A stretch of DNA of 64,000 bases from an uncultured Lewinella sp. GTDB taxonomy: Bacteria > Bacteroidota > Bacteroidia > Chitinophagales > Saprospiraceae. The DNA is taken from NCBI GenBank assembly GCA_937873655.1, contig CALMYQ010000092.1, forward strand, positions 124,001 through 188,000. Direction: 5' to 3'. The position numbers and the translations under genes are program-made. Below the pieces are notes generated by a model. It saw only the letters and a program-made list of their open reading frames with translations, was not told where the DNA came from and searched no databases. The number at the start of each line of letters is the position of its first letter. Position 1 is the first letter of the stretch. Shown one piece after another: positions 25,711 through 35,929 of this stretch.

Positions 25711-28188
25711 TTATTGCTCTTGCACGTAGACCCGTTTGACCCTTGGCGAAATACCGGAAAATACCTCATACGGGATCGTGCCGGTGGCCTGAGCCAATTG
25801 CTCGACCGGCCAGGTAGGACCGAAAATAACGGCGACGTCACCTTCCTGCACGCCCGGGATGCCGGTGACGTCTACCATGGTCATATCCATGCAGACATTT
25901 CCAACGGTTGGAGCGGCTTTATCCCGAATGCATACGCTGAAGCTCCCGTTGCCCGCCGATCGCTTCAATCCGTCGGCGTAGCCCAGGCTGAGGGTGGCGA
26001 TCCGCCGCGGCGACATTATTTTTCCCGATCTGCCGTAACTCACGGTTTCTCCAGGGGGCAGGTCCCTGATCTGGGAGACGGTGGCCTTGAGTGTCAGCGA
26101 GGGAAGGAGTTTGCCGCCCCGGTCAGGGCCCTGACCAATGCCGTACAGACCGATTCCCAGGCGCACCATATCCATCTGGTATTCCGGAAACCGGGAAATG
26201 CCGCTGGAGTTTAACGCGTGTTTCAACGGACGGTAACCCAGGGCCCGGGCCAGCGAATCAAACATGGCATTGTACCGGTCCATTTGCTGGTGCGTGAACC
26301 CGTCAAAGGCCGAAGATTCGCTGGCGGCGAGGTGGGTAAAGACCGATCTGACCTGCAAAAAGGGGTACCGGGTCAGCTGCCCGATCAATTCTGGGACCTG
26401 TGCGGGTTCGAAGCCCAGCCGGTGCATCCCCGTATCCAGTTTCAGGTGAATGGACATGGTCAGTTGGCGCTCATCTGCGAATGCGGCCAGTTCCCGGAGT
26501 TGTTTCAGGCTGTAGATTTCGGGTTCGAGATCATATTCGACCAGGGCGTCAAAAGTGGCCGGTTCGGGGTTGAGCACGAGGATGGGGGTAACAATGCCGT
26601 TCCGCCGCAAGTCGACCCCTTCGTCGGCATAGGCTACGGCAAGGTAATCGACATGATGGTAGGAAAGGAGCCGGGCTACTTCGATGCTGCCGCTGCCGTA
26701 AGCGCCGGCTTTCACCATCACCATGAGCCGGACGCCCGGCGCCAGAGACCGGCGGAATGCCTGCAGGTTGGAGGAGATGCCGGCAAGGTCTACTTCGAGT
26801 ACCGTCCGGTGGGTATGAGGTTGCAGGCGTTTGGCGATCCGTTCGAATGCAAACGGCCTTGCGCCTTTGAACAGGATGGCTTCCCGGAAAAAATCGCTTT
26901 GGCGGAAGGATGCCAGAAAGGTTTCCGTAGAAGGGAAAAAGAACATGGTGATATCATCGGGCAAGTGCTGTCGCAACTCTGCCACTTCCTTGCCGATACC
27001 GAAAACCCGGCTGACCCCTACCTCCTGCAGTAAACGAGCTACCCGCTGGTAGAAATCCCGCTTTTCATTCGGGCCGACCTCGAGAAAATCTGACAGAAAA
27101 AGGGTTTTTTTATCCTGATGCCGTTGTTTGCTCATGAAATGAAGGGCAACGGAAAGCGATTGAAAATCGGCGTTGTAGCTGTCATTGATGAGCGTGCAGC
27201 CGTTGATGCCGTCCCGCAGCTCCAGGCGCATTTCAATCGGATCAAGGCGGCTGAAACGGGCGGCGATCCGGTCATGAGGCATACCGAGCGCCAAGGCTGC
27301 GGACCAGACATGGAGCGCATTTTCCACGGAAGCCTCATCCGTAAACGGAATAGTGACCTGTATGGGCTTACCCTGGAACAAGGCGGTGATTTCCGTACCG
27401 GAACCGGAGTCCCGGGCTTGGGTTACTTCAAGGTCTGCAGGTCCGATGGTAGACCAGGAAAAAACCGGCCGATTGAGACTCAGCAATGCATCTTCCACCA
27501 TAGGCTCTCCCTTCCGGTAAATGATCAGACCGGCATGCTGAAAAAGCAGCAGTTTTTCTTCGATTTTCTGATTTCGGTCGGCAAATCCGGCGTCATGAGC
27601 GGGTCCGATATTGGTGAAAATGCCGATATCGGGCCGGATGACGGATGCCAGCCTGTTCATCTCGCCGGGTTTTGAAATGCCGGCTTCAAAAATGCCGATT
27701 TGATGTTCAGGTTCGATGAGCCAGACCGAGAGCGGAACGCCGATCTGGGAGTTATAGCTTCTCGGGCTCCGGACACATTTCCATTGCCCGGACAGCACCG
27801 AATAGAGCCATTCCTTTACAATGGTTTTGCCGTTGCTGCCGGTAATGCCGATCACGGGCAGCTGGAAGCGCGACCGGTGAAATGCGGCGAGACTTTGCAG
27901 GGCATCAAGTGTGGATGAGCCCCGGAGCAGCATAAAACAGGCTTCCGGGAATAGTCCGGTTTCCGGCAATTTACTGACGGCAAATGCGCGTACTCCTACC
28001 TGATAGGCCGATGCGATAAAATCGTGACCGTCCCGATTAGGCCCCTGCAGTGCAAAAAAGAGCGAGGTTGCCGGGTCGCCGATATGACGGCTGTCGGTGA
28101 TCAGGTGGTCAATTTCCGCTGCCGGGAAATCGCCCGGGAATAAATCCGCCTGTAGGATACGGGCAATATGGTGCAGGTCGTATTTCAT
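25711..28188 (-). CDS. Bifunctional MurF ligase / alanine racemase
   Basis: The 825-residue fusion joins two steps of peptidoglycan precursor synthesis. The N-terminal half (1 to about 450) is MurF, which adds D-Ala-D-Ala to the UDP-MurNAc-tripeptide; the ATP site GITGSNGKT lies near residue 115. The C-terminal half (about 460-825) is a PLP-dependent alanine racemase making D-alanine: MVKAGAYGSG with the PLP lysine near 493, and GYADG with the predicted catalytic tyrosine. This fusion is known from Bacteroidota. It starts 40 nt after the proS stop, so the two are probably co-transcribed. Confidence 0.95.
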   Translation of the reverse strand: MKYDLHHIARILQADLFPGDFPAAEIDHLITDSRHIGDPATSLFFALQGPNRDGHDFIASAYQVGVRAFAVSKLPETGLFPEACFMLLRGSSTLDALQSLAAFHRSRFQLPVIGITGSNGKTIVKEWLYSVLSGQWKCVRSPRSYNSQIGVPLSVWLIEPEHQIGIFEAGISKPGEMNRLASVIRPDIGIFTNIGPAHDAGFADRNQKIEEKLLLFQHAGLIIYRKGEPMVEDALLSLNRPVFSWSTIGPADLEVTQARDSGSGTEITALFQGKPIQVTIPFTDEASVENALHVWSAALALGMPHDRIAARFSRLDPIEMRLELRDGINGCTLINDSYNADFQSLSVALHFMSKQRHQDKKTLFLSDFLEVGPNEKRDFYQRVARLLQEVGVSRVFGIGKEVAELRQHLPDDITMFFFPSTETFLASFRQSDFFREAILFKGARPFAFERIAKRLQPHTHRTVLEVDLAGISSNLQAFRRSLAPGVRLMVMVKAGAYGSGSIEVARLLSYHHVDYLAVAYADEGVDLRRNGIVTPILVLNPEPATFDALVEYDLEPEIYSLKQLRELAAFADERQLTMSIHLKLDTGMHRLGFEPAQVPELIGQLTRYPFLQVRSVFTHLAASESSAFDGFTHQQMDRYNAMFDSLARALGYRPLKHALNSSGISRFPEYQMDMVRLGIGLYGIGQGPDRGGKLLPSLTLKATVSQIRDLPPGETVSYGRSGKIMSPRRIATLSLGYADGLKRSAGNGSFSVCIRDKAAPTVGNVCMDMTMVDVTGIPGVQEGDVAVIFGPTWPVEQLAQATGTIPYEVFSGISPRVKRVYVQEQ

Positions 28189-28228: not shown

Positions 28229-29698
28229 TCAATAGGCTTTGGCGAAAAGTACCCGTTGACTGGACGGTTTACCGGTCAGGATGCAGACGCCTTCTTCCGG
28301 ATCGTTTTCGAGCGGAATGCAACGGATGGTTGCCTTGGTTAACTCCTTGATCTTCAATTCCGTTTCGGTGGTTCCGTCCCAATGGGCCGATACAAAGCCG
28401 GGAATATCTTCATCGATGATGGATTTGAAATCGTCAAAGGTATCGACGCGGAAGGTTTTTTCCGTCCGGAAATCCTTGGCCCGCTGGAACAGGCTGTTCT
28501 GAATGTCCTTCAAAAGGTCCTCGACATAACGGTCGACTCCATCAAGGGCCACCGAGGTTTTCTCCTTGGTATCCCGCCGGGCCACTTCAACAACGCCGTT
28601 TTCCAGGTCGCGCTGGCCGATGGCAAGGCGAACCGGGATACCCTTCAATTCCTGTTCGGCAAACTTGAAGCCCGGGCGTTTTTTCATATCGGTGTCGTAA
28701 ATGCAGGTGATGCCCCGCGCTTTCAACGCATTCATGATCTTCTGAGCGACCTCATCGATTTCGGTTGCCGGCTTGGGGATCGGCACAATGGCTACCTGTG
28801 TAGGGGCCAGTTTCGGCGGCAACACCAGGCCTTCGTCATCGGAATGGGTCATGATCAAGCCGCCCATCAGGCGGGTGGAAACGCCCCACGAGGTGGCCCA
28901 GACGAATTCTTCCTGGTTGTTTTCATTCAAAAACTTCACATCAAAAGCCTTGGCAAAATTCTGGCCCAGGAAGTGGGAAGTGCCGGCTTGCAAGGCCTTG
29001 CCGTCCTGCATCAGCGCTTCGATACAGAAGGTCTCTTCTGCGCCTGCAAACCGTTCGTTGGCGGTTTTGATGCCCTTTATGACCGGCATAGCCATGTACT
29101 CTTCGGCGAATCGGGCATAAATATCCAGAATCCGCAGTGTTTCTTCCATAGCCTCTTCCTTGGTGGCATGCGCCGTGTGGCCTTCCTGCCAGAGGAATTC
29201 TGCGGTGCGGAGGAATAGCCGCGTCCTCAATTCCCAACGGACTACATTGGCCCATTGGTTGATCAGCAAGGGAAGGTCGCGATAGGAGTTGATCCAATCC
29301 TTGTAAGTGTGCCAGATGATCGTTTCGGAAGTCGGCCGGACGATGAGTTCCTCTTCGAGACGGGCTTCCGGGTCCACAACCACGCCGCTTCCGTCCGGGG
29401 CGTTCATCAGGCGGTGGTGGGTGACAATAGCGCATTCTTTGGCAAAACCCTCGACGTGTTCGGCTTCCTTGCTGAGGAAACTTTTGGGGATAAACAGCGG
29501 AAAGTAGGCGTTGACGTGTCCGGTCTCCTTGAACATGCGGTCCAGCTGATCCCGTATGTTTTCCCATATAGCGAACCCATACGGCTTGATGACCATGCAA
29601 CCCCTCACAGCGGAGTTATCAGCCAGGTTGGCTTTCTTAACAATGTCGATGTACCACTGCGAGTAATCTTCCGTCCTTCCCGTTATTTCCTTTGCCAT
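28229..29698 (-). CDS. proS: Prolyl-tRNA synthetase, archaeal/eukaryotic-type
   Basis: This class II synthetase charges tRNA-Pro. The 489-residue protein begins [20 protein letters not shown] and continues with [18 protein letters not shown] and a class II motif 2 region around [25 protein letters not shown], features of the short form without the bacterial editing insertion. A C-terminal anticodon-binding domain and a zinc-type C-terminal tail typical of this form follow. Start is the ATG at 29698. It is divergent from the low-complexity protein gene and heads an operon with murF-alr. Confidence 0.95.
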
Positions 29699-29744
29699 AA
29701 GATTTTTCGGATTTGAAAAACTTGATTATCAAACGATTGTTTAT

Positions 29745-29876
29745 ATATTTGAGGATTGTTTCAATTTAAGCCTGATAGGGGGAATATTTAACAGATTTTA
29801 ACAAAGTCTTATGTGGCTTTGTCCCTGTGTCCGCGTCTTAACAATTGTTAAAACCGCAGGTTAAACGACTTTAACA
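29745..29876. promoter_or_regulatory. Divergent promoter region with repeated TTTAACA words
   Basis: Between proS and the low-complexity gene, TTTAACA occurs at 29787, 29797 (10 bp apart) and 29870, and inverted at 29846. The last is part of the perfect 14-bp palindrome TTAACAATTGTTAA at 29838-29851. A TATATTTG box on the plus strand near 29745 matches the -7 consensus. The clustering suggests a regulator binding site; which gene it controls cannot be told. Confidence 0.45.
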
Positions 29877-29981: not shown

Positions 29982-31223
29982 ATGATGAGAAAGAATAAAT
30001 TGACCGCGCTTTTGATCGCAGTATTGAGTGTGGCGGCCACTTTGTCCCTTCGAGCACAGTACGATGATTTGTACTATGACCCGGACAGGGATGGTTCTAC
30101 CTACTCTGCTTCGAGCTATTCATCCGACAAGTATAGCACTGATGATTATGATGACGGCTATGACTATGATGATGAATATTATGACTACTATTATACGTCA
30201 CGCATCAAGCGTTTCTACCGGCCTTATTATGGGTTCGGTTATTACGATCCCGTATATGTTGACTCCTACTACTATGGTCAGGCGTTTTCACCCGGGGTTA
30301 CGGTGCTGATCTATGATAGTCCGTTTGGATACAACAACTATTACAACTACCGGAGATACAACCGTTGGAACAGCTGGAATCGCTGGAACAATTTCGGCTA
30401 CGCCGGCTCTTTCTATGACCCATGGTATGGTTCAGGCTTCCGTTCCGGCTGGGGCGGCGGTTACGGCAACTACTACACGGTCAATAACTATTACGGCGGC
30501 GGCGCCTACGGTTATGGCGGTTACGGCGGATTTGGCGGTTACGGCGCCGGCTATGGTTCTGCGTATTATTGCCCACCGACCTGGGGTTCCGGCTACGGTT
30601 ACACCACGGTCAATAATATCAGGAATTCCACAACCAGCAATCCTACGTCCTATGGCCCGCGTACTTACGGTACCACCCGGATCTCCCGGACGGACAACGG
30701 CCGCGAAGACGTTCGCAATACCACGGGCTCGGTACCCAGCCGTCACAGGTCAGTGACCGACGCACAGGATACGAAAACGACGACGCGGACGCCGGATAAT
30801 GCCAGCTCGCTCGAACGCCATACCATTCGTCCGGACAGAAGCGAAACGCCGCAAATGGATCGTACCCGTTCTTCCGCAGGTCGCAGCAGCATCGATAATT
30901 CCACCAGCCGCAGGGCCAGGGAAGTTGCTCCTTCCACTTCGAGAAGCTATGAAAGGGAAACGCCGAGCCGCAGCAGGTCTTATGACCGCACGCCGTCCAC
31001 CACCCGTCAAAGCGCACCGCAGAGGACTTATGAAGCGCCGCGCCAGTCCCGGTCGATGGACCGCAGTTCCAGCACGCCGAGCCGCAGCTTTGACCGCGGT
31101 TCCAGCAGCATGCCGCGCAGCAGCGGCTCTTCCGGCAGCAGCGTGGGCAGCTCGCCCCGAAGCAGCAGCTCCGGCAGCAGCAGCGCTCCCAGCAGAAGCC
31201 GCGGCGGCCGCGGGAATGAATAA
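29982..31223 (+). CDS. Exported low-complexity protein (Tyr/Asp, then Tyr/Gly, then Ser/Arg-rich)
   Basis: The 413-residue product has a signal peptide (KLTALLIAVLSVAATLSLRAQ) and three biased sections. Residues 26-75 are Tyr/Asp-rich (YYDPDRDG, DDGYDYDDEYYDYYY), residues 75-215 are Tyr/Gly/Asn-rich (YGGGAYGYGGYGG), and the C-terminal 190 residues are Ser/Arg/Thr-rich with repeated SRSFDRG-like words and an extremely basic character. No enzyme fold is apparent. Acidic and basic halves and many tyrosines suggest a self-associating surface or matrix protein. It is monocistronic, with a strong terminator. No function is assigned. Confidence 0.8.
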   Translation: MMRKNKLTALLIAVLSVAATLSLRAQYDDLYYDPDRDGSTYSASSYSSDKYSTDDYDDGYDYDDEYYDYYYTSRIKRFYRPYYGFGYYDPVYVDSYYYGQAFSPGVTVLIYDSPFGYNNYYNYRRYNRWNSWNRWNNFGYAGSFYDPWYGSGFRSGWGGGYGNYYTVNNYYGGGAYGYGGYGGFGGYGAGYGSAYYCPPTWGSGYGYTTVNNIRNSTTSNPTSYGPRTYGTTRISRTDNGREDVRNTTGSVPSRHRSVTDAQDTKTTTRTPDNASSLERHTIRPDRSETPQMDRTRSSAGRSSIDNSTSRRAREVAPSTSRSYERETPSRSRSYDRTPSTTRQSAPQRTYEAPRQSRSMDRSSSTPSRSFDRGSSSMPRSSGSSGSSVGSSPRSSSSGSSSAPSRSRGGRGNE

Positions 31224-31252: not shown

Positions 31253-31300
31253 AAAAAGTGGGTGGAGGTTGTGGCCAATTTCCACCCACTTTTTTATTTT
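31253..31300 (+). terminator. Strong terminator after the low-complexity gene
   Basis: AAAAAGTGGGTGGA at 31253-31266 pairs with TCCACCCACTTTTT at 31281 onward, followed by TTATTTT. It works in either direction but lies just after the plus-strand gene. Confidence 0.85.
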
Positions 31301-31327: not shown

Positions 31328-32800
31328 ATGATGCGAAACCTTTTATTGAGTATATCCATAGTATTGTGCACTTCCGCAGGCTTATATGCCCAGACCTTTT
31401 CAGACGCACTGCGCTATTCCTACCTGACGCCGTTCGGGACGGCAAGATCCGTCGGCGCCGGCGGGACTTTGGGTTCTCTGGGCGCCGACTTTTCGTCAAT
31501 TTATTCCAATCCTGCAGGGTTGGGTTGGTACCGGCAATCCGAATTTACCCTCAGCCCCATGTTTGGCGTTGCCAATATCAAATCCCAATTGTATAACGGC
31601 GACGGCAACCCGCCGAACAAGGAAAATGATACCCGTTTCAACCTGGCCAATTTCGGATTGGTCGTTGCCGGGCGGCCGCGCAACCCCAAATGGTCTACCT
31701 CTAATTTTGCGCTGGGTTTCAACCGGTTGGCTGATTTCAACCGGGAATATACTTACCGGGGGAGCTCAAGGGGGACTATCCTCGACCGCTTTGTAGAACA
31801 GGCCAACAGCCAGGGGCTTGTACCCGGGGAATCGGAAGTGGCGTACAACGCAGAAGCCCTCATTTACGATGAACAGGCCGGGGAGTACTACAGCGATTTT
31901 GACGGCCTCCCGGATGCCGTTGTCGAGCGCGAACAAACCATCGTAGCCTCCGGTTCGGTCAGTGAATTGTCCCTCGCCTTTGCCGGCAACTATGACGAAA
32001 AAGTGCTTTGGGGGCTGACGATCGGGATCCCCTTCCTGAACTATTCCGAACAAAAGACCTATAGGGAATCGGACCCCGGAACCGGCCAGGACGGCAACAT
32101 TCCTTATTTTGACGGCTTGCAATGGCAGGAAAACCTGACTACGACCGGCGCGGGCATCAATGCCAAACTGGGCATTATTGTCCGGCCCAGCCAAATGGTG
32201 CGGGTCGGGTTCGCTATCCATACCCCTACGCTTTTCGGGCTGGAAGACAATTACAGCACGGCCATGTTCTACGATTATACCTACCAGGGGGCAGCCCTGA
32301 CCGGTACCGATCAGTCGGATAACGGCCTGTTCAATTACCGGCTGCATACGCCCTGGCGGTTTTTAGGCGGCGCCGGGTTCATTTTCGGCAAGATCGGCTT
32401 TATATCCGGTGAGATCGAGTACCTCAATTACAGCAATGCAAAATTCAGGTACGACGACCAGTACGATCAATCTGAAGGCGCCGTTAATGAGGATATTAAG
32501 TCCTATTTATCATCAGCTGTCAACTTCCGCCTCGGCGGGGAAGTTGCGCTGGATGTCTGGCGGGCCCGTGCGGGCGTTGCGATCCTGGAGGCCCCGCTGG
32601 AAGGGGATCAAACCATCGCCAAGCAATTCAGCGCCGGTTTCGGCGGGCGATTCGACGGATTCTATTTTGACCTCGCCTACCGGTATTCCGACAGCAAAGA
32701 ATCCTATATACCGTATGTAACCAATGCGGGGCCTGAGCAAATCGTTGATCTGGATTTCAACTATCATCGATTTGTGGCAACACTCGGATTCAGGTTCTAA
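31328..32800 (+). CDS. FadL/OmpP1-like outer-membrane beta-barrel protein
   Basis: The 490-residue protein has a signal peptide (LLLSISIVLCTSAGLYAQ) followed by LTPFGTARSVGAGGTLGSLGADFSSIYSNPAGLGWY, the conserved N-terminal plug region of FadL/OmpP1-type transporters (the NPAGL motif). The rest alternates beta strands with aromatic girdles and ends in LGFRF, a typical terminal strand ending in phenylalanine recognised by the BAM complex. Members take up hydrophobic compounds; the substrate here is unknown. It starts at the first or second ATG and is bounded by terminators. Confidence 0.82.
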   Translation: MMRNLLLSISIVLCTSAGLYAQTFSDALRYSYLTPFGTARSVGAGGTLGSLGADFSSIYSNPAGLGWYRQSEFTLSPMFGVANIKSQLYNGDGNPPNKENDTRFNLANFGLVVAGRPRNPKWSTSNFALGFNRLADFNREYTYRGSSRGTILDRFVEQANSQGLVPGESEVAYNAEALIYDEQAGEYYSDFDGLPDAVVEREQTIVASGSVSELSLAFAGNYDEKVLWGLTIGIPFLNYSEQKTYRESDPGTGQDGNIPYFDGLQWQENLTTTGAGINAKLGIIVRPSQMVRVGFAIHTPTLFGLEDNYSTAMFYDYTYQGAALTGTDQSDNGLFNYRLHTPWRFLGGAGFIFGKIGFISGEIEYLNYSNAKFRYDDQYDQSEGAVNEDIKSYLSSAVNFRLGGEVALDVWRARAGVAILEAPLEGDQTIAKQFSAGFGGRFDGFYFDLAYRYSDSKESYIPYVTNAGPEQIVDLDFNYHRFVATLGFRF

Positions 32801-32884: not shown

Positions 32885-35725
32885 TTAGTTCCGGGACTTG
32901 ATCAACCGCAAAGTCCGCACTTCTCCATCGGCAAAGAGCCTTAGAAAATATATGCCTGAAGGCTGATTGTTCAGATCGATCGCTTCATTCAGGGTGGAAA
33001 TCTGGCGGTAAGATCTCCCCATGATCCTTTGCCCGAAAGAATTGAACACCTCCAATGACAGATCCGAAGACCGTACCAGGTTCAGTTGCAACGAGGTTTC
33101 ACCTGTCGTCGGGTTGGGCGCCAATACAGCTGAAGAAATAAACTTACCCGGTTCGGCGACATCAGTAATGACGCTGACCGTTACCGTGATCTGATCCGAG
33201 CAACCCTGTTTATCGGCTACCTGAACCGTGTATTCACCCGGCATGAGGTCGTTTTGGGTACTGCCCTGGCCGCCATTGCTCCAGGAATAGGTGAAGGGAC
33301 CCTGGCCTGCGGCAGCCGATATGGTCGCGCTGCCGTCCGCATTTTCCGGACCTGTGGCATCCTTGATGGTAGAGCTCAGGTTGAGCGATGCCGGGCACCG
33401 CTTGAGGAAAATATTGTCAATGTCCAGGTAGTAATCGCCCGAAGCCCAGGTTGCCATGAAGCGTATTTTAATGGCAAAACCTGCGAATTCATCCAAAGAG
33501 ACGCGCATGGTCCGAAGCTGCGTGGAGGTGATATGGGTAGTGTCATTGATCACTACGACATCGGTATAGGACTCTCCGCAGTCTGTCGACACCTGGGCTT
33601 TGATCAGGCTGCCGGGGCCTAGAACGGTGGCATTTTGCCCGCTTCCGGAAAAGTCAACCACCCGGTAATCGAACAAGAGGGAATCTCCGGGTTCAACAAG
33701 GCCGAGAAGCGGCATGGTGGCCATAAAGGTCTGGTCGCTGCTCCAAAGGTTGTCGTAAAGTACAAAGGAGCTGTTATTGTGCCCGTTGGTAACGGAAAGG
33801 TCGGTATCGGCTACCCATCCTGCGGGAATGCTGCCTTGTTCGAAATCCACGACATAAGGAATGCCCAGGCCGGTTGTAGAAAAGGCGGTGTTGATGGTAT
33901 CATTGATGAGTACCAAATCGCCGTCTACCGAAGCCCAGGCCTTGATGAGATAGTCGCCCGGTATCGAGGAATCAAAAGAAGAATCGAATGTGTAGGTATA
34001 AGAAGCGTTGGGCAGCAACGTGAGGGTGTCAACGTTTTCGGTGATGACATTACCGCCGTTCACCTGAAAGGAAAAGGAGATATTCGAGAGGGTATCCGTT
34101 CCCAGGTTGACGATGGAAATGGTGGCAATATCATCCGGACCGCCGCAATCAAGCATGGGGTTGTGATTGGCGCTGGAGGCCTGGATGTCCCGGGCAACCT
34201 GCGGAGCGATATAGATATTGTCAACGCCGACGCCTTCGCGCACAACCGATCCGTCAGTGAAAAAGGACAACCGGAGGCGAACGCTCGGGTTGCCGGCTAC
34301 GTTATCGAGCGTATGGCGGACCGTTGTCCACCCAAGGAATTGAGCGCCGCTCCACCAGGGGCCCTGTACGAGATCGTTGTGGTTATACCAGTTGATGCCT
34401 TCTCCGAGGGTTCCGAGTTTTTCCCAGGTTTCTCCGCCGTCTCGGCTTACATCAACCCATAATCCGTCGTAATCGAATTCTGTGTTGAGCCAGAGGGAGA
34501 AGGACAAAACCGGGTCTTCCGTCAGCCCACTGAAGTCAAAACAGGGCGATTCCAGAAATCCCCGCTCGGTATTGTTGTATGAGCCGTCCAGGTTGGTCGC
34601 CCAGATGTTGTTTCCGCTGGCTGCGACGTTCAATTCCGGACCGGACGGATGGCCGTATTCCCAGGAAGAACTCAAGCTTTCCGGGTTGACCAGCCAGCCT
34701 TCGCTCCATTCTTCAAAAAGGGCGTAATAAGGCAGTGATTCTATGGTCGGAATACTGACCACCTTGACGGTAAACGTGTCATTGGTGGTTTCGCTGTCAC
34801 CCTGGAGGGCCGTCCAGGCCTGAATGATGTATTCGCCCGGCTCGGAAAAATCATAGGATGCGTCAAAGGTCATGGTATACAGGCTATCCTTTCCGAGAAT
34901 GCCGGTATAAAACCCATCGGTGGGCGGATTGACGGCCCCCGGATCTCCGTTGACGCTGTAGTAGAATTCGAACAGCGACTGTGGCGATCCGCCGAAGTTT
35001 TTAAAGGTTACGCTGATGGGGGTAGAACTGCTGAGGTTGCAGCCCGTAGTCGGCGTGACGACGTCGACTATGCCGACGTTTTTGGCCCAGAGTGTTTTGA
35101 ACGGATAGGGACCCACCTGGTGGCTGGTATCCCCGTTGGCGCACATAACAGATAGGTAAAATTCGTATTCGGTATTCTCCATCAAGCCGGTCAGTTTGGC
35201 TTTTTTTCCGGGAGCGGACCTGACCAGCCCGGTGCCGGGCGTAAACCCGGTGGTGTCGTATTCGATGAGATATTGGCCGTCGGGGTCGGATTGGGTCCAG
35301 CTGATATCGGCAGTAAAAGCGCGTACATCATCCACGCTGACATTTGCGGGCGGCGGAACCGGGCAGGTCGGGCAAACGACTGCAAAAGTAAAAACCGGCC
35401 CTATTGCAGGGAACGGGCCGTCGGAAAAAACTTCCAGGCCATCGGCATCGAGCAGCGTGTAGCTCACTTCATTTTCATAGTTGCCGGGAGCATAGATAAA
35501 ACTGATTTGAATGCCGTCGGTAACTGAAAGCGTGAATTCCGCTTCGTAGCCGGAAGTGAAAGTATAAGTTGTTACACCACCCGTACTGGTCAGCAGCGTA
35601 AGACTGGCGCCATTCCAGCCATCCCCGAAGCTGTCGTGCAACTGGAGCTTATACTCGCATGGGAGTTGAGCGGCGAGACTGCCGGCCAACAGGAAGAAAA
35701 AGATCAATGAGTAGCAATGTTTCAT
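32885..35725 (-). CDS. Large secreted multidomain protein with T9SS sorting domain
   Basis: The 946-residue product starts with a signal peptide (MKHCYSLIFFFLLAGSLAAQ); I chose this ATG at 35725 over an in-frame start 16 codons upstream. It contains an N-terminal beta domain with HDSFGDGWNGA, a fibronectin type III-like domain (about 125-215), CARDB-like domains, two jelly-roll regions of the MAM or choice-of-anchor type, an SprB-like repeat (PFTYSWSNGG) and a C-terminal T9SS sorting domain (LAPNPTTGETSLQLNL to the end). It should be exported through the outer membrane and fixed to the surface, probably in adhesion or matrix binding; no catalytic domain is evident. Confidence 0.88.
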   Translation of the reverse strand: MKHCYSLIFFFLLAGSLAAQLPCEYKLQLHDSFGDGWNGASLTLLTSTGGVTTYTFTSGYEAEFTLSVTDGIQISFIYAPGNYENEVSYTLLDADGLEVFSDGPFPAIGPVFTFAVVCPTCPVPPPANVSVDDVRAFTADISWTQSDPDGQYLIEYDTTGFTPGTGLVRSAPGKKAKLTGLMENTEYEFYLSVMCANGDTSHQVGPYPFKTLWAKNVGIVDVVTPTTGCNLSSSTPISVTFKNFGGSPQSLFEFYYSVNGDPGAVNPPTDGFYTGILGKDSLYTMTFDASYDFSEPGEYIIQAWTALQGDSETTNDTFTVKVVSIPTIESLPYYALFEEWSEGWLVNPESLSSSWEYGHPSGPELNVAASGNNIWATNLDGSYNNTERGFLESPCFDFSGLTEDPVLSFSLWLNTEFDYDGLWVDVSRDGGETWEKLGTLGEGINWYNHNDLVQGPWWSGAQFLGWTTVRHTLDNVAGNPSVRLRLSFFTDGSVVREGVGVDNIYIAPQVARDIQASSANHNPMLDCGGPDDIATISIVNLGTDTLSNISFSFQVNGGNVITENVDTLTLLPNASYTYTFDSSFDSSIPGDYLIKAWASVDGDLVLINDTINTAFSTTGLGIPYVVDFEQGSIPAGWVADTDLSVTNGHNNSSFVLYDNLWSSDQTFMATMPLLGLVEPGDSLLFDYRVVDFSGSGQNATVLGPGSLIKAQVSTDCGESYTDVVVINDTTHITSTQLRTMRVSLDEFAGFAIKIRFMATWASGDYYLDIDNIFLKRCPASLNLSSTIKDATGPENADGSATISAAAGQGPFTYSWSNGGQGSTQNDLMPGEYTVQVADKQGCSDQITVTVSVITDVAEPGKFISSAVLAPNPTTGETSLQLNLVRSSDLSLEVFNSFGQRIMGRSYRQISTLNEAIDLNNQPSGIYFLRLFADGEVRTLRLIKSRN

Positions 35726-35929
35726 ACCAATGGGTTTAAAAATCCAATAGCCGGTCCCGGCCTTCCCAACCATTTTTGATCGAAAGGGCTAAATTTAGAC
35801 AAAAAAATAAGGCTGGTAGCCGAAACCGGTCCGATTTTTAAAGATATATCGGCCAGGCGGCTGAAAAGAAGAGAGGCCGGAGGGCGAATTTGGGAATACC
35901 TAAACCCGTCAGGATGAAGAAGGGCCGGA

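Follow-up and report, generated by a model that had tools for sequence, protein, structure and literature searches.

The gene pair formed by TyrSR and OMP490 is kept across most of the class and beyond, and no family model exists for its TyrSR side. TyrSR is encoded in the window, by which we mean the whole stretch of 64,000 nucleotides that was analysed. Judged by sequence, it belongs to a recurring protein family and is no orphan. Our preferred reading, tentative and held with a little less than even confidence, is that a widespread, disordered Bacteroidota envelope family works with the outer-membrane barrel OMP490, that TyrSR represents this family in Saprospiraceae, and that it docks on the barrel by its N-terminus. 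This reading starts from an export signal, predicted disorder, a charge split, a conserved motif and the gene pairing, to which it adds a putative docking and a putative periplasmic location. Pairs of a barrel and a lipoprotein are a defining trait of the Bacteroidota envelope, overlooked core components of which came to light in two papers of 2025 (PMC12611786, PMC12578637). If the TyrSR-OMP490 pair is functional, its role would be directly testable by deletion in a tractable relative.

TyrSR gene and protein

TyrSR is located between proS, on the opposite strand, and OMP490 (Table 1). It is present in a single copy in its own genome. The predicted signal peptide, MMRKNKLTALLIAVLSVAATLSLRA, is followed by Q26-YDDLYYDP as read by eye. 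Cleavage is predicted before Gln26, the signal sequence ending LRA-Q. The window copy has no lipobox, as no cysteine is found at the end of the signal sequence.

Table 1. Positions of the features in the window
Feature	Position	Strand	Remarks
proS (prolyl-tRNA synthetase)	28229..29698	-	Pfam; divergent flank in most relatives
Promoter-like site TTG-N19-TAnnTTTG	29722..29751	+	230 bases before the TyrSR start codon
TyrSR ORF	29982..31223	+	ATG start, 413 codons; exported, charge-split protein, predicted disordered
Signal peptide, residues 1-25	29982..30056	+	Read from the sequence by eye; helix with high pLDDT
N-terminal motif QYDDLYYDP, residues 26-34	30057..30083	+	Least variable element of the family
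Acidic Tyr/Asp block, residues 27-100	30060..30281	+	Composition
Conserved core DYYYTSRIKRFYRPYYGFGYYDPVYVD, residues 68-94	30183..30263	+	Alignment, 35 rows
Gly/Tyr-rich part, residues 131-215	30372..30626	+	Composition
Basic Ser/Arg tail, residues 216-413, end RSRGGRGNE	30627..31220	+	Composition
Terminator-like hairpin followed by a T run	31253..31294	+	Conserved, covarying in Saprospiraceae
OMP490, FadL-family outer-membrane barrel	31328..32800	+	Constant neighbour of TyrSR

The first-pass annotation had described an exported, charge-split, Tyr-rich protein, and the signal peptide, the composition and the charge pattern of the 413-residue product all bear this out. The acidic block contains 31% Tyr and 22% Asp and has a net charge of -11. 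The Gly/Tyr-rich part contains 29% Gly and 20% Tyr. The tail, 198 residues long, contains 26% Ser and 17% Arg for a net charge of +16. Overall, Tyr content reaches 12.3%, compared with 2.2-6.5% in four neighbouring proteins. The charge split goes beyond chance, with a sequence charge decoration z of -7.0 and none of 200 shuffled sequences as low.

Comparison with 34 relatives gave identities of 0.49, 0.50 and 0.32 at codon positions 1, 2 and 3 for the whole frame, and of 0.37, 0.42 and 0.27 for the tail alone. In addition, different codons are used at 2636 of the 4191 identical residues. Therefore, the TyrSR frame is coding throughout, tail included. The non-coding substitution pattern that the first-pass annotation had named as a possible objection is absent.

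TyrSR is predicted to be intrinsically disordered. Its AlphaFold model has a mean pLDDT of 44.6 and is confident only in the signal peptide; the underlying alignment has 35 rows and is of low complexity. The function had been called undescribed. The window TyrSR matches no Pfam or NCBIfam family at E<=10, and no open-licence PMC paper naming the family in its title or abstract was found. When 37 relatives were compared with Pfam and NCBIfam at E<=0.1, only scattered weak matches were obtained (best 8e-4), each model being found in at most two members. The TyrSR profile also met PDB entries, but these hits seem to reflect Ser-rich low complexity and were not retained.

The promoter-like site carries TTG-N19-TAnnTTTG, which we take to be the Bacteroidota-type promoter consensus. 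The pattern has two exact matches in the window for 0.53 expected, and 10 of 100 shuffles reach two. With a spacing of 18-21 it is found in only 3 of 97 loci, window included. These counts are weak evidence, and a promoter at this place is tentative.

Family spread and pairing with OMP490

TyrSR matches were found in 38 of 60 near relatives. The alignment of 35 members, drawn from 40 loci with L015, L028, L033, L036 and L039 left out, contains five invariant residues, D28, Y31, R74, R77 and F78. In the class sample, the profile matches 129 of 246 genomes at E<=1e-3, a number limited by the low complexity of TyrSR and inexact both ways, as six matches lie off the OMP490 place and the 39 missed genomes examined carry candidates in the same slot. 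In the phylum sample of 118 genomes, 12 have a match at E<=1e-8, including five that do not belong to the class.

Conserved features were counted over 99 rows. One of these is L064, where the motif rule took a wrong ORF of 118 aa although an actual ORF of 450 aa exists; it was dropped from the charge-split and lipobox tallies, which have 98 rows. Among the 99 rows, 87 contain D[DE][GVLIMA]Y in their first 60 residues, compared with 3.4 expected by shuffling. R[ILVM]xR[FY] occurs in 73 of 99. The head is negative in 96 rows and the tail positive in 98; for the charge split, 80 of 98 rows reach a z below -2. At least two Arg/Lys are found in the last five residues of 80 of the 99 rows, compared with 12% of the other five-residue stretches in the second half; the window TyrSR has one. 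Lipobox and motif assignments were made with regular expressions and not with a trained predictor. The automatic motif rule did not succeed in 7 of the 106 usable loci: a contig end truncates L028, and in L049, L053, L082, L092, L098 and L111 a long Tyr-rich ORF is present in the slot. In some rows (e.g. L040, L054, L061), the motif that this rule picked is inside the chain, away from the N-terminus. L033 (same record as L003) and L044 (same genome as L017) were dropped. L043 and L037 encode an identical protein and were both kept, so that one row is double.

The usual arrangement has a divergent proS on one side and OMP490 downstream on the same strand. Of 107 loci, one was unusable; 96 have both neighbours, seven have OMP490 only and three have proS only, the fetched stretches being short. 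proS is present and divergent in 99 of the 106 usable loci. OMP490 lies within 2.5 kb for 100 of the 106 class TyrSR matches with an OMP490 place among the matches listed, 23 of the 129 TyrSR-positive genomes having no listed place. Six class matches are off the listed place; in G104 and G260, OMP490 begins at the contig start. The TyrSR match of G210, in a frame of 1248 aa, is probably false. In the window, two further proteins are encoded on the minus strand. The first (25711-28188, 825 aa) fuses a Mur ligase part, MurF-like, to an alanine racemase. The second (32885-35773, 962 aa) matches fn3, SprB and InhA-like MAM and also has a T9SS sorting tail (1.5e-8).

Many loci were fetched by similarity to TyrSR, so the independent tests of the pairing are the 100/106 adjacency and a set of 39 regions around OMP490 in genomes without a TyrSR match. 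Such class genomes number 99 by subtraction, of which 39 were examined; the regions come from 43 listed genomes, with G214, G297, G237 and G152 left out. In all 39, an ORF judged by eye to be exported or lipobox-like precedes OMP490. Gene order finds, in every usable region examined, a TyrSR counterpart that the profile search misses. proS is on the far side in 35 regions. The slot ORF was first picked as the most Tyr-rich and was later seen to be the longest in 38 of 39. Its Tyr content ranges from 4.0 to 15.0%, with at least 6% in 31 regions and less in the other 8, so that enrichment is slight in some relatives. A DDxY-type motif is found by rule in 35; the four ORFs missed have DDGVY (L083), DDGIY (L089 and L092) and YDGVY (L098).

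Co-occurrence points in the same direction. Of the 18 class genomes that lack OMP490, not one has a TyrSR match, compared with 129 of the 228 with OMP490 (p 7e-7, a value uncorrected for relatedness, seven of the 18 genomes belonging to one family). This family, f31, may have lost or replaced the pair.

Outside the class, two of the five TyrSR loci have both proS and a FadL-like gene beside them, two have a FadL-like gene only (L122 and L125, with no proS match in the fetched stretch) and one has proS only. No FadL-like gene was found within the fetched stretch of L124. In L122, the TyrSR relative is separated from the FadL-like gene by an extra ORF of 187 aa with a lipobox-like start.

A conserved neighbourhood can persist without any interaction of the proteins. 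The gene order might be a relic beside the essential proS, with TyrSR having no tie to OMP490, and proS is indeed the other constant neighbour. We regard this as very unlikely: the order is kept even in relatives whose alignment with the window TyrSR shows no more than 23-33% identity, it is also kept outside the class, and L122 and L125 retain the FadL-like neighbour without a proS match. Among 61 loci outside Saprospiraceae, 22 have a TyrSR-OMP490 gap of less than 30 bases, as in an operon.

OMP490 and the known barrel systems

OMP490 has a match in 228 of 246 class genomes (E<=1e-10) and is single in its own genome. Its profile matches FadL-family structures (TbuX, 3.9e-7). Pfam PF03349 is found at E<=1 in 10 of 18 OMP490 members, the window copy having none. 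PF03349 also gave two weak matches in the genome itself; by eye their ORFs are unlike FadL and they were set aside. The OMP490 model has a pLDDT of 89.4 and superposes with Z of about 28-33 on CymD, TbuX, FadL, TodX and BamG chains. Asn61-Pro62 is invariant within the aligned N-terminal region. Profile and model agree in predicting a FadL-type barrel with an N-terminal hatch. OMP490 thus shares its fold with FadL, TodX and TbuX (PF03349) but has only about 12-16% identity with them in the alignments, and it differs from them by a putative N-terminal extension and by its TyrSR neighbour.

Alignments of OMP490 start at model residue 25 for three BamG chains and at residues 29-37, mostly 31-34, for FadL, TodX, TbuX and CymD. 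According to the fold alignment, the N-terminus would be about nine mature residues longer than that of FadL, and the extra stretch aligns with BamG. The BAM papers and the near-universality of OMP490 prompted us to consider that it is BamG. This was rejected on sequence grounds, as OMP490 profiles match no BamG chain of the PDB at E<=10; as a control of presence, the BamA of the genome finds the BamA chains of 9N2D, 9HJ3, 9HIV and 9HJM in the same PDB copy. PosF of Riemerella, from the part of its description available, was also considered and set aside.

The BamG-BamH pair of the Bacteroidota BAM complex belongs to the nearest known kind of system. In the available text of PMC12611786 and PMC12578637, a FadL-family barrel is bound by a lipoprotein through its lipid-adjacent N-terminal region. 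The differences are that OMP490 profiles miss the BamG chains, that TyrSR is predicted to be disordered and that BamH is surface-exposed. BamP of F. johnsoniae gives a second comparison, its linker entering BamA (available text of PMC12611786). Like TyrSR, BamP is exported, consists of three parts and has an extended linker associated with a barrel of the outer membrane. In contrast, it has folded domains, and TyrSR relatives reach well past one family; the two were compared in sequence by PDB profile search only.

TyrSR could be imagined as an assembly helper or plug, its disordered chain threading into the OMP490 or BamA barrel while outer-membrane proteins are being assembled. From the portion of PMC12611786 available, detectable BamP is limited to Flavobacteriaceae, and for species without it the authors give two possibilities, resistance to darobactin by another way or unrecognised BamP analogues. 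In B. thetaiotaomicron, BamA contains a loop rich in Tyr, with Gly and Asn also enriched (PMC12578637, available part), and the BamG alignments of OMP490 cover the N-terminal stretch missing from the FadL ones. However, neither TyrSR nor OMP490 is recognisable among the BAM subunits described in the available text of these two papers. The TyrSR profile meets no BAM chain of the PDB at E<=1, BamP not being among its matches, and OMP490 is not BamG by sequence. We find such a helper highly improbable.

Membrane side, proposed role and hairpin

By a simple rule, 48 of 98 TyrSR rows are lipoprotein-like (L017 probably wrongly), and 47 of the 62 rows outside Saprospiraceae. In 42 of these lipoprotein-like rows, the distance from the cysteine to the start of the motif is 8-15 residues. 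By eye, the five relatives from outside the class look like lipoproteins too, which suggests that the lipid-anchored form is the older one. In Saprospiraceae, TyrSR has Gln at position +1 of the predicted signal-peptidase I site, which fits the Bacteroidetes Q-rule as given in the available text of PMC5837995.

Mapping in Capnocytophaga placed an acidic surface-export signal at +2 to +6, and signals of B. fragilis and F. johnsoniae were also tested (PMC5080379, available part). None of the 48 lipoprotein-like rows has at least two acidic residues at these positions; 42 have none and six have one. Since the signal is absent, we infer that these relatives face the periplasm, by a rule that was defined in other Bacteroidota and that does not fix the membrane side of the window copy, which has no lipid anchor.

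These results bear on the role proposed by the first-pass annotation, namely self-assembly, adhesion or mineral/matrix binding. TyrSR would then leave the cell and act as a surface or matrix protein. It has a signal peptide, and its Tyr/Gly and Ser/Arg low complexity and strong charge split would suit coacervation. However, such a role needs a way out of the cell, and none was found: the window TyrSR has no Por_Secre_tail match at E<=10, while the neighbouring 962-aa protein matches a T9SS sorting domain, and the surface-export signal is lacking in the lipoprotein-like relatives. TyrSR is also widely paired with a barrel gene. Being single-copy and kept beside this gene across the class and beyond, it would be an envelope part and not a lifestyle-specific matrix protein. 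A matrix role is therefore possible but not favoured, and we consider it quite unlikely.

Alternatively, TyrSR could be a self-sufficient tether between the outer membrane and peptidoglycan or lipopolysaccharide, the link to OMP490 being one of co-expression only. Many relatives combine a lipid anchor at the start of the chain with a basic C-terminus, and their likely disordered length, about 200-670 residues, could span the periplasm. Yet no peptidoglycan-binding domain was matched at E<=0.1 among the 37 relatives, the gap to OMP490 is short in many loci, and the window copy, devoid of a lipid anchor, would need OMP490 or another partner. An independent tether is, in our view, distinctly unlikely.

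We favour docking on OMP490 instead. The mature N-terminus would dock on the outer-membrane barrel from its periplasmic side. The docking end would be pyroglutamate-YDDxYYDP here and, elsewhere, a lipid-bearing Cys, about 11 residues and then DDxYYxP. In Saprospiraceae, where the lipid anchor is missing, binding of the motif alone may hold TyrSR. The acidic Tyr-rich head and the basic Arg tail would fold back on each other, within one chain or between neighbouring copies, giving a dense brush beneath the outer membrane. The basic end would grip an anionic envelope polymer, peptidoglycan or lipopolysaccharide; the target of the tail could also be DNA, a polysaccharide or nothing in particular. 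RcsF, which is threaded through barrels, would resemble the proposed pair in that a lipoprotein containing a disordered segment has an outer-membrane barrel as its partner; the difference is the folded signalling domain of RcsF. A bolder version, which we think unlikely, makes the pair an unrecognised outer-membrane machine that is widespread in the Bacteroidota. The DDxYYxP end of the disordered, usually lipid-anchored protein would enter or cap the barrel and the charged chain would condense below the membrane, gripping the wall or gating the barrel.

A last feature concerns the gap between the two genes. The 91 bases past the TyrSR stop fold at -30.7 kcal/mol (z -4.5). In the 8.07 Mb genome the exact stem pattern has a single occurrence, and the Rfam search gave a single match, below the gathering score (E 0.16). 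Over all loci, a stem with a T run is present in 25 of 97 gaps, compared with 2.8 in shuffles. In Saprospiraceae, 30 of 32 loci have a hairpin and a T run in the same gap (that of L026 is weak), L022 and L027 having none. GGTGGA occurs in 16 of the 32 Saprospiraceae gaps, compared with 0.63 expected and with 2 of 65 other loci. Compensatory changes are observed, both sides being altered in 10 of 12 pairs over the 26 aligned rows; these represent 26 of the 32 loci, the hairpin-bearing L015, L026, L030 and L038 being left out. Choosing rows for their folding biases the share of paired cells upward, for which slid controls help partly. The hairpin may limit read-through into OMP490 and, in Saprospiraceae, may set the output of TyrSR above that of OMP490. 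About 30 bases remain between the hairpin and OMP490.
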